Origin: Dehalococcoides mccartyi
GTDB lineage: Bacteria > Chloroflexota > Dehalococcoidia > UBA2979
Assembly: GCA_945865925.1 (NCBI GenBank)
Contig: CAMBFG010000002.1
Coordinates: 76,421 to 140,420 of the forward strand
Direction of reading: 5' to 3'
DNA: 64,000 bases
How positions within the stretch are numbered: the first letter of the stretch is position 1; the number at the start of each line of letters is the position of its first letter. Of the stretch, positions 1,264 to 4,254 are shown piece after piece. The position numbers and the translations under genes were made by a program. Under the pieces are notes generated by a model. The model searched no databases. It had not been told where the DNA came from and saw only the letters and a list, made by a program, of their open reading frames with translations.

Positions 1264-1650
1264 CTACCCGCTGAGGATGGCGGCGAGGTCGCGCACGGCA
1301 TCGTTCCGCACACGGAAGTAGGCCCAGGAGCCTCGACGTTCACGCTGCAGGAGGCCCGCGTCCACGAGGACCTTCAGGTGGTGGCTGACCGTCGGCTGGG
1401 TGAGGTCGATCGTGTCCACGAGGTCGCAGACACACGCCTCGCCAGTCTGCGAGGCCGCCACGGTCGCGAACAGGCGCAGCCGCGCCGGGTCTGAGAGCGC
1501 CTTGAACGCGCGTGCGGCCAGCGTCGCGGCCTCCTCGGAGACGCAGCAGTCGAGGAGGCTCGTGCAGCAGGCAGCGAGCCCGTCGATGACGGGGAGCACC
1601 TCGAAGGATGGGGTCGTGAGTGCAGGGGGCGCTGCGGCTTTGGGGGACAT
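1264..1650 (-). CDS. ArsR/SmtB-family transcriptional regulator
   Basis: MSPKAAAPPAL...FKALSDPARLRLFATVAASQTGEACVCDLVDTIDLTQPTVSHHLKVLVDAGLLQRERRGSWAYFRV; ArsR winged helix with CVC thiol motif plus N-terminal CC pairs. Start placed at 1650 rather than 1737. Confidence 0.93.
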   Translation of the reverse strand: MSPKAAAPPALTTPSFEVLPVIDGLAACCTSLLDCCVSEEAATLAARAFKALSDPARLRLFATVAASQTGEACVCDLVDTIDLTQPTVSHHLKVLVDAGLLQRERRGSWAYFRVRNDAVRDLAAILSG

Positions 1651-1680
1651 CGATGTCAGTCTATATTGACATCCATCGAT
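1646..1680. promoter_or_regulatory. Putative ArsR operator / divergent promoter region
   Basis: Perfect 12-bp palindrome GACATCGATGTC at 1646-1657 overlapping the arsR start codon, plus related half-site TTGACATCCATCGAT at 1666-1680; 7-bp inverted pair GATGTCA/TGACATC. Confidence 0.6.
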
Positions 1681-1763
1681 ATCGCAAGCATCCTGAGCCC
1701 CGCGGCCATATAGACGCGCGTCGATGCCGCCGTCCACCCAGCGTTCGGTTCAAGGAGGTCACC

Positions 1764-1859
1764 ATGACCTTCAAGCCGTTCAACGGCACACCTCTGCCCG
1801 TCCTCAACGGCGGGGACTGCTGCGACAGCGCTTGCAGTTGCGAGCCGGGCTGCTGCTAG
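1764..1859 (+). CDS. 31-aa cysteine-rich peptide (MTFKPFNGTPLPVLNGGDCCDSACSCEPGCC)
   Basis: ATG at 1764 preceded by AAGGAGGT (1752-1759), a near-perfect Shine-Dalgarno; six Cys in the C-terminal 13 residues; divergent from arsR. Embedded in the larger track ORF 1620..1859. Confidence 0.7.
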   Translation: MTFKPFNGTPLPVLNGGDCCDSACSCEPGCC

Positions 1860-1870
1860 CAGCTTGAGCG

Positions 1871-1909
1871 GGGGTGGGGTGGCCTCGACCCCTCGAGGCG
1901 GCCCCGCCC
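1871..1909 (+). terminator. GC-rich hairpin (possible terminator/attenuator, no T-tract)
   Basis: GGGGTGGCCTCGA (1876-1888) / TCGAGGCGGCCCC (1893-1905) nearly perfect inverted repeat, CCCC loop. Confidence 0.35.
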
Positions 1910-1964
1910 TCGTGCCTCGCTCGCACGACGCCGGTACGCTGGCGCGCCTCGGAAGGAACCCGCC

Positions 1965-3032
1965 GTGGAATTCGGACTGTTCGTGGAGTGGCCGAACGCG
2001 GGCGCACGCGTCTGGCGCGAGGCATTCGAGGAGAGCGTCGCGCAGGTGCGCCTGGCCGAGGAGGTCGGGTTCGACTTCTGCCTGATCGCGGAGCACCACT
2101 TCTCCGACTACAGCATCGCGCCATCGCCGCTCCTCGAAGCGCTCGCGTTCGCACGCGTGACCTCGCGGATTCGCATCGGCACAGGCGTAGCGGTGCTGCC
2201 GGAGTGGCAGCCGCTGCGGCTCGCCGAGGAGATGGCGGTCGTCGACCAGTTGAGCGGCGGGCGCTTCATCGCCGGCGTCGGCCGCGGCTTCGTGCCCTTC
2301 GAGCAGGAGCGCCTCGGCGTCGTCGTGGACGAGGGTCGCGCGCGCTTCGAGGAGTCGCTCGATGTCCTCGTGCAGGCGTGGACGGCGACAGACTTCACGT
2401 ACGCCGGGAAGCACGTCCGCATCGACCACCCAACGACGGTGCTCCCGCGGCCGCTCCAGACACCCCACCCACCGATCTGGCTCGCCGGTGCGAGCGCGGA
2501 GTCCGTTGACCTCGTGGGACGTCGAGGGCTCACGCCGATCACCTCGGGCGCGGCGGGGGTGGAGCGGCTGCGCGAGCAGCACGGCGACTACGTGCGCGCG
2601 CGCCACCAGTACGGGCGCGGCGACGAGCCGCTACACGTCGTCGCGCAGACACAGGTACACATTGCGGAGACGACCGCCGAGGCGCACGCGACGCTCCCGT
2701 TTGCCCGCTGGCAGGCGCGCGCCGTGACCCGCCTCGTGCAGGCGCGGATCGAGGGCGGCATCCTCGATGCCACCCCGGCGGAGGACGACCCGAGCAACGA
2801 AGTGCTGCTTGGGCGTCAGTTCATCGGCACACCGGACCAGATCATCCCTCGGCTACAGGCCCTCAACGACGCGGGGGTGACGCATGTCAGCATGCTGATG
2901 GAGTTTGGCGGCCTCGATGCCGCGCGCATCGAGCGATCGATCCGCCTCGTGGGCCGCGAGGTGATCCCAGCGCTCCGAGGAGCCACCCCTCCGGCGAGCC
3001 TCACGGCCAGCGCGCTCGCAGCGAGCGGATAG
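1965..3032 (+). CDS. LLM-class flavin-dependent oxidoreductase (luciferase-like monooxygenase)
   Basis: GTG start; MEFGLFVEWPNAG...VRLAEEVGFDFCLIAEHHFSDYS...RIRIGTGVAVLPEWQPLRLAEEMAVVDQLSGGRFIAGVGRGF; LLM fold motifs; SD-like GGAAGGA at 1951. Confidence 0.9.
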   Translation: MEFGLFVEWPNAGARVWREAFEESVAQVRLAEEVGFDFCLIAEHHFSDYSIAPSPLLEALAFARVTSRIRIGTGVAVLPEWQPLRLAEEMAVVDQLSGGRFIAGVGRGFVPFEQERLGVVVDEGRARFEESLDVLVQAWTATDFTYAGKHVRIDHPTTVLPRPLQTPHPPIWLAGASAESVDLVGRRGLTPITSGAAGVERLREQHGDYVRARHQYGRGDEPLHVVAQTQVHIAETTAEAHATLPFARWQARAVTRLVQARIEGGILDATPAEDDPSNEVLLGRQFIGTPDQIIPRLQALNDAGVTHVSMLMEFGGLDAARIERSIRLVGREVIPALRGATPPASLTASALAASG

Positions 3033-3036
3033 CGGC

Positions 3037-4254
3037 GTGGGGATCGTCGCGCGCGCTCGATACTGGCGGGACGCGGTGCTCCTGGGCATCGCGACGATCG
3101 GGGCATACGGCGTCGTGTACTACGCCTTCGGCGTGTTCATCGAACCGCTGCATGACGACACGGGGTGGAGCACGGGCACGCTCTCCCTCGCCTACTCCGC
3201 AGGGGTGCTGCTTTCGGGCGTCGGAGCGGTAGTCGGCGGACGCGCGCTGGACCGGCAGGGGCCGCGGCCGGTGATGGTGACCGCCGTCGTTGTGGGGGCA
3301 CTCGGCCTGCTCGCAGCGTCCGAGGCGCGCCAGGTCGTGTGGTTCGTGGCGTGCTGGGCGGTGGCAGGCGGTGCCGTGGCGGGCGGGCTCTACTACAACG
3401 TCACGATGTCCACGACGTCGCGGCTGTATGCCGACCGGCGGGCCACCGCCGTCAGCGTGCTGACCCTCCTCGGCGCGCTGGCAAGCCCGATCTTCAACCC
3501 CCTCGTCGCGTGGATGGTGGAGGCGTGGGGCTGGCGCGAGGCGTTGCGCGCGCTCGCCGTGCTATTGGTGATCCTCGCGGGCCCAGCAGCCCTCCTCGTG
3601 CGGTCGGAGGCGGTGCCGGTGCCGCCGCGTGTCCCCGGTGACCGAGGAGCCTGGCGCGAGCCGATGGTGTGGCGGCTGATACTCGCAGCCTGCTTCTCTG
3701 CCGGAGCGACGAGCGCCCTCCTCCTCCACCAGGTGAGCGCGATCCGCGCGCTGGGTTTGTCTCTGGCGACAGCAGCCGCCCTCGGTGGGGCGCGAGGACT
3801 CATGCAGATCCCCGGCCGCCTCGTCCTGACGCCGCTCACCAATTGGCTGGGCGTCCACACGACGCAGGTGGTCTGTTACGGGATGGTCGCGGCTGGTGCG
3901 AGCGCCCTCGTCGTTGCGGACGGACTCGTGGCGGCGTGGTTCTTCGTAATCGCAGCCGGCCTCGCGATCGGACTGAGTTCACCGCTCAACGGGTTGCTAG
4001 GGGCGGAGGCGTACGGGGCACGCCTCGGCACGTTCTCCGGGATGCAGGCAGCCGCCACCAGCGTCGCGAGCGCGGGCGGCGCGTGGCTCGCGGGTGTTGC
4101 GGTGGACCGGACGGGGGACTACGGCCTCACACTCGCGGGCATCGCAACCCTCGAGGTCGGTGCGGCCGCCGCCCTGCTCTGGCAACGGCGCGCGGTGCGG
4201 GCAGCACGGGCGGGGAATGCGGTTGCACTCAGCGCCGAGGGCGAGCGGGCCTAG
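3037..4254 (+). CDS. MFS transporter
   Basis: Twelve-TM-like protein; 4-nt gap after the LLM gene; GGRALDRQGPRPVM loop typical of MFS. Confidence 0.88.
   Translation: MGIVARARYWRDAVLLGIATIGAYGVVYYAFGVFIEPLHDDTGWSTGTLSLAYSAGVLLSGVGAVVGGRALDRQGPRPVMVTAVVVGALGLLAASEARQVVWFVACWAVAGGAVAGGLYYNVTMSTTSRLYADRRATAVSVLTLLGALASPIFNPLVAWMVEAWGWREALRALAVLLVILAGPAALLVRSEAVPVPPRVPGDRGAWREPMVWRLILAACFSAGATSALLLHQVSAIRALGLSLATAAALGGARGLMQIPGRLVLTPLTNWLGVHTTQVVCYGMVAAGASALVVADGLVAAWFFVIAAGLAIGLSSPLNGLLGAEAYGARLGTFSGMQAAATSVASAGGAWLAGVAVDRTGDYGLTLAGIATLEVGAAAALLWQRRAVRAARAGNAVALSAEGERA

Follow-up and report, generated by a model that had tools for sequence, protein, structure and literature searches.

A conserved cysteine-rich micropeptide gene beside arsR in Dehalococcoides mccartyi: a putative arsenite-binding, metallothionein-like peptide linked to arsenic operons of Chloroflexota

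Results

A cysteine-rich micropeptide is encoded divergently from arsR

The window analyzed here, 64 kb of DNA, lies on contig 2 of a genome of 2.3 Mb. The features of interest are an arsR gene, a divergent gene for a micropeptide (MTFKPFNGTPLPVLNGGDCCDSACSCEPGCC), a hairpin, and two downstream genes (Table 1). Six cysteines fall within the final 13 residues of the 31-aa peptide and are preceded by about 17 residues that are free of cysteine. An earlier note had described this open reading frame, its Shine-Dalgarno sequence and the divergent ArsR from the sequence, and the sequence, coordinates and counts that it gave were correct.

Table 1. Features of the arsR-micropeptide locus (positions in the window)
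Feature	Position	Strand	Basis
arsR; ArsR/SmtB repressor of As(III)-sensor-like type, N-terminal CC pairs, ACVCDL	1264-1650 (ATG 1650, stop 1264)	-	NF033788; 6J0E
ArsR-type operator box, 1 mismatch	1649-1664	-	box scan
ArsR-type operator box, 1 mismatch, overlaps TTGACA	1665-1680	+	box scan and gap alignment
Proposed promoter: TTGACA (1666-1671), 17 nt, CATCCT (1689-1694)	1666-1694	+	conserved in six clusters
ArsR-type operator box, exact palindromic match	1710-1725	+	box scan
Shine-Dalgarno sequence of the micropeptide, AAGGAGGT	1752-1759	+	kept in G003 and G004
Cys-rich micropeptide CDS, 31 aa, CCx3CxCx3CC-stop	1764-1859	+	kept in G003 and G004; dN/dS <1
20-bp RNA hairpin shortly 3' of the peptide stop, no U-tract	1868-1913	+	z -4.5
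LLM-class flavin monooxygenase	1965-3032	+	PF00296; ortholog after arsM in G018 and G032
MFS transporter, candidate arsenite efflux pump	3037-4254	+	PF07690; synteny

The reading frame looks to be under selection, and the gene looks genuine. Of the four further genomes in the genus, two encode the peptide (G003, MTLKPFNGVLLPALGGGDCCDSDCGCEPGCC; G004, MTLKPTSVTLLPVIGGGGCCEGDCGCEPGCC; identities of 77% and 61%, E 2.5e-12 and 4.8e-8) with the same gene order around it, and neither the peptide nor its arsR was found in the remaining two. Across the three genomes the Shine-Dalgarno sequence, all six cysteines, EPG and the stop are retained; the conserved residues other than cysteine are EPG, LP and KP. 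Pairwise dS/dN values (Nei-Gojobori; small numbers) were 0.51/0.14, 0.89/0.23 and 0.34/0.17. Conservation in close relatives was the check that the earlier note had proposed, and the resulting dN/dS of about 0.25-0.5 is below neutral.

In Pfam and NCBIfam the peptide had no matching family at E values up to 1, although peptides so short may escape such models, and with the same reservation we do not assign it to the curated families of bacterial metallothioneins. A relaxed search of 149 relatives gave credible matches confined to the genus. Among matches at E >0.03, those inspected resembled unrelated frames; the inspection was partial, and several minus-strand loci were not reverse-complemented. 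A class-wide search for the pattern with a TRR stop was flooded by CTG-type repeats, and the matches that stood out clearly came from the genus and from G016, another member of the family. A genome-wide pattern scan returned 13 stretches, of which L066 and L069 are the known genus genomes and the others resemble chance frames. Searching plasmids with the peptide (tblastn) gave nothing credible; a Mycolicibacterium match was rejected because the region is unrelated.

The downstream genes belong by synteny to an arsenic cluster

The earlier note had seen no ars transport genes nearby, and this did not hold: synteny places the MFS gene and the preceding LLM gene in an ars cluster. Nor had the note recognized a link to arsM, an operator in common, a cysteine module like that of ArsM or a hairpin after the stop, all described below. 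Within the family, the arrangement is arsR<>arsM-LLM-MFS in two genomes (G018 and G032) and arsR<>peptide-arsM-MFS in G016, whose peptide is MRSDGTFVVIENAAAASGGCCDDDCCEDECC; arsM in these clusters was called by NF008823 above its cut-off. Homologs of the window MFS are present in all three arsM clusters. Based on this synteny, the window cluster is a variant of the arsenic cluster without arsM, in which the peptide takes the position held by arsM in G018 and G032. The window MFS scored 72.5 bits against the ArsK model NF033733 (cut-off 400), far too low for an assignment from the model alone, and its link to arsenic is therefore by synteny.

The window genome gave no match to ACR3 and none to ArsM at E 1e-45 (weaker matches include a UbiE-like gene inside the window). 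Its two ArsC-like (or low-molecular-weight phosphatase-like) matches are adjacent to each other (L301 and L302, G000:C14:7025-8052) and lie away from the arsR-peptide locus. The LLM flavin monooxygenase (L025 and L026 among its instances) lies between arsM or the peptide and the MFS pump in the ars clusters of the family, and may be an arsenic enzyme.

Cysteine-rich micropeptides recur beside arsM and arsR in other families

We scanned 115 and then 38 Chloroflexota arsM loci (two rounds, about 150 in all) for cysteine-rich micro-ORFs preceded by a Shine-Dalgarno sequence. Such peptides adjoin arsM or arsR in five other families (f137, f127, f103, f104 and f112); they are 19-31 aa long and the majority end in CC-stop. 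The gene order is arsR<>peptide-arsM in G501 (MDENTVASAVPQDCCGDCCCEGCGDDCDGCC), G536 (MSAANEPCCPEPCCPDPECCPPGEEPCC) and G441 (MPCDCPCGSCPCPCLASRHG), and arsR-peptide-arsM in G397 (MNELLVVNDDCCGGGCESSDCCGGYSGCC). The peptide comes after arsM in G407 (MDCTCPCCDGCNCDPTCCS) and in G654 (VIGPCCPPQPACPEDCCPPEEPCC), where it has a GTG start and overlaps the arsM stop.

With strict requirements (CC close to the C-terminus, a Shine-Dalgarno sequence and at least five cysteines) and loci picked beforehand left out, the 308 kb lying up to 1 kb from arsM contained four peptides and the other 1401 kb contained one (binomial P 0.0045). Alternative thresholds gave P values of 0.0005 to 0.023, with counts that took in G016 and the false case L172, and because several thresholds were tried the enrichment P is only a guide. 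L172 was rejected as the tail of a sigma-factor-like ORF, and L263 was set aside as unconvincing. A reading of L207 as an ArsM tail was also rejected, as it is a separate frame that overlaps the arsM stop. The G397 and G501 peptides had no match in relatives of their family or order at E 0.01, possibly because of fast turnover or because the query is short. The families share the cysteine pattern and position and little further sequence, and common descent of the peptides is therefore unproven. By eye, a 394-aa ORF of the G441 ars cluster (L166:4049-5233) looks like an aquaporin-like transporter fused to an ArsC-like reductase.

A conserved hairpin follows the peptide stop

Hairpins equivalent to that of the window occur in G003 (z -4.3) and G004 (z -3.2), with some pairs preserved despite changes, and in G397 a 16-bp hairpin (z -6.2) lies between the peptide and arsM. 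Scans found no terminator with a U-tract. The hairpin may protect the peptide message, may give an excess of peptide by limiting read-through, or may be part of an attenuator.

This strong, conserved hairpin downstream of the ORF makes attenuation the main rival to a functional peptide. The ORF would be a cis-acting leader, ahead of the operon, in which a shortage of cysteine (for example, consumed by arsenic) slows ribosomes at the Cys codons, alters the hairpin and turns on LLM-MFS, the peptide product being functionless. A hairpin that starts right after the stop in three genomes, together with that before arsM in G397, fits such a leader, and there is a precedent: polycysteine attenuating leader ORFs of mycobacteria (Canestrari et al. 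2020, described in PMC9031893) are likewise short cysteine-rich ORFs before an operon, and the RNA structure sought between such a leader and its operon is present here as the conserved hairpin. In contrast to those leaders, the peptide has a strong Shine-Dalgarno sequence and appears not to be leaderless, its residues other than cysteine (EPG, LP and KP) are conserved with dN/dS <1, and it can come after arsM, as in G407 and G654. Furthermore, the peptide-arsM gaps in G501 and G016 leave scant space for a hairpin, and the U-tract expected of a terminator is missing. On balance we consider a cis-acting leader unlikely.

The peptide shares its operator with arsM of related clusters

The window ArsR passes the metalloregulator models NF033788 (94.6 bits, cut-off 55) and PF01022 (50.3 bits, cut-off 22) and fails the Rv2640c-family model NF041413 (89.5 bits, cut-off 155). 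Its thiol pairs, pointed out earlier, are indeed there, in the motifs AACCTSLLDCC and ACVCDL. Among solved structures the arsenic repressor 6J0E, of the Corynebacterium glutamicum type, matches best (E 3e-16), and the N-terminal CC pairs of the two proteins line up; unlike 6J0E, the window ArsR carries a second CC pair and ACVCDL. The protein thus appears to have the N-terminal CC ligand pair of 6J0E-type arsenic sensors, and is a putative sensor of arsenic. The arsR start codon abuts an operator with no visible Shine-Dalgarno sequence (window 1648-1671), and the arsR message may be leaderless.

The arsR-peptide gap can be aligned with the gaps that separate arsR from arsM elsewhere in the family. 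The aligned gaps have in common ATCGATG, AGTCTATATTGACA (GTCGATATTGACA in two), a spacer of 17-18 nt, a CATCCT-like element and a second box, so that one type of promoter and operator serves the peptide here and arsM in the relatives. A consensus promoter scan did not pick out 1666-1694 and found no strict sigma-70 promoter. Within the window the box ATMGACRNNCRTCKAT, with at most one mismatch, is confined to the arsR-peptide gap, where it occupies three sites; counting both strands there are four matches, versus a chance mean of 0.36 in the window. At the same threshold a box lies upstream of the peptide or its operon in 10 of 10 loci, compared with 0.3% of 160-bp segments drawn at random from the window. 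The enrichment is partly circular because the motif was derived from the same loci, but several of these belong to other families. From these arrangements we infer that the peptide locus is controlled by arsenic.

The ArsR might instead respond to something other than arsenic, and the peptide would then serve another metal (Cd, Zn, Cu, Hg or Sb) or general thiol stress. Regulators of the ArsR/SmtB type sense several metals, cysteine clusters of this kind bind many ions, and arsM, acr3 and arsC are all absent next to the window cluster. However, the same operator drives arsM in the relatives, similar peptides recur adjoining arsM, and the nearest solved regulator is an arsenic repressor, leaving this explanation quite improbable.

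The peptide resembles cysteine modules of ArsM

Most surveyed ArsM proteins, including L241 and L242, have an N-terminal CC cluster. The one clear surveyed case without it is the ArsM of G016, and there a free peptide is encoded just upstream. Cysteine-rich C-terminal tails were found in 24 of 114 ArsM proteins, some of them worded much like the peptide (SLPVAESGCGCGSGGCC and ELPIAASGCGCGSGCC). Two tandem CCx3CC clusters, with eight cysteines, stand at the N-termini of the ArsM proteins L158, L168, L170, L173, L174, L176, L179, L184 and L186. In CmArsM the As(III)-related set comprises residues equivalent to Cys44, 72, 174 and 224 (PMC5552862); of these, Cys44 is, we infer, the counterpart of the N-terminal CC cluster.

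The earlier note had compared LPVLNGGDCC in the peptide with LPVIDGLAACC in the N-terminus of ArsR and allowed that this may be chance. The likeness recurs in N-termini and C-terminal tails of ArsM from other Chloroflexota. In 200 shuffles with cysteine positions fixed, P was 0.005 for the window peptide against the ArsM N-terminus LPVLNASGCC, <0.005 for the G004 peptide against an ArsM tail and 0.005 for the G407 peptide against an ArsM tail; these are three of 27 comparisons, and the values are uncorrected. The common wording is LPV-x3-5-CC followed by C-x-C or CC. The peptide differs from the ArsM modules in being free, with its own Shine-Dalgarno sequence and stop and without an enzyme domain. 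Shared ancestry of the peptide and the ArsM modules is plausible, not proven.

The likeness to ArsM ends, and the position of the peptide where G018 and G032 have arsM, could also mean that the window cluster lost arsM and that the ORF is a leftover cysteine-rich end of it, retained by chance. We think this very unlikely: the frame, Shine-Dalgarno sequence, cysteines and stop are kept in three genomes with dN/dS <1, and an intact arsM and a free peptide occur together in G016, G501, G536, G397, G441, G407 and G654.

The earlier note had offered two interpretations. The first, a metal(loid)-inducible thiol peptide, gains support from the ArsR-type operators, the conserved coding and the recurrence beside arsM. 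The second, a RiPP precursor with an N-terminal leader (the cysteine-free residues) and a cysteine core on which an enzyme of the cluster would act, for instance the downstream LLM flavoprotein, is not supported and seems highly improbable: outside the genus the peptide loci have no LLM gene, in G018 and G032 the LLM gene goes with arsM where there is no peptide, and no other modifying enzyme, and none conserved beside the peptides, was recognized in gene lists read by eye.

Discussion

Based on the conservation, the shared operator, the synteny with ars genes, the recurrence beside arsM and the likeness to ArsM motifs, we believe that the ORF probably, with moderate confidence, encodes a trans-acting, metallothionein-like micropeptide that would bind As(III), serving as an ArsR-induced As(III) buffer or donor and as a free-standing version of the cysteine module of ArsM. 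Under arsenite stress, ArsR would leave the shared operator and the peptide, LLM and MFS genes would be transcribed, with the peptide the first to be made. The clustered thiols of CCx3CxCx3CC would bind trivalent arsenic, lowering free As(III), and the peptide would hand As(III) to partners encoded in the operon, the MFS pump here and ArsM at other loci. The proposed parts of this scheme are As(III) as the ligand, binding in the cell and the hand-over.

A broader proposal is that a family of dedicated arsenic-binding micropeptides is encoded in ars operons of Chloroflexota. The peptides would represent a detachable cysteine module, which can be joined to ArsM (at the N- or C-terminus) or be free at 19-31 aa, with the G016 peptide supplying in trans the N-terminal cysteines absent from its ArsM. 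We put this forward tentatively, as a possibility that we would not yet favor. Its strongest version, a detachable capture module of ArsM acting in trans, rests mainly on one genome.

The metallothionein SmtA is controlled by SmtB, a relative of ArsR. The peptide resembles bacterial metallothioneins (SmtA/BmtA and mycobacterial MymT) in being small, cysteine-rich and associated with a metal-responsive repressor, and differs from them in its 31-aa length, its CC pairs, the absence of a Pfam or NCBIfam match and its linkage to arsR and arsM. A second parallel is ArsD, the As(III) chaperone of ArsA: the likeness is in the proposed hand-over of As(III) to a partner, and we claim no relation in sequence. 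Neither ArsA nor ArsD was seen in the loci examined.

The ars operon is described as encoding regulators, pumps, reductases and methyltransferases. Our literature search, in which coverage of subscription journals was limited, turned up no report of a comparable peptide from an ars operon, and a 2025 paper states that a specific gene for intracellular sequestration has yet to come to light inside the ars operon (PMC12093948). The gene described here is conserved and has no family model, and, judged from its sequence and surroundings, is a new variant of metallothionein-like peptides linked to arsenic operons. If this is true, a conserved, ArsR-controlled cysteine micropeptide would be an intracellular-sequestration gene of the ars operon that lies under the size cut-offs of annotation, and its fused and free forms would provide a testable case of the substrate-capture segment of an enzyme acting in trans.
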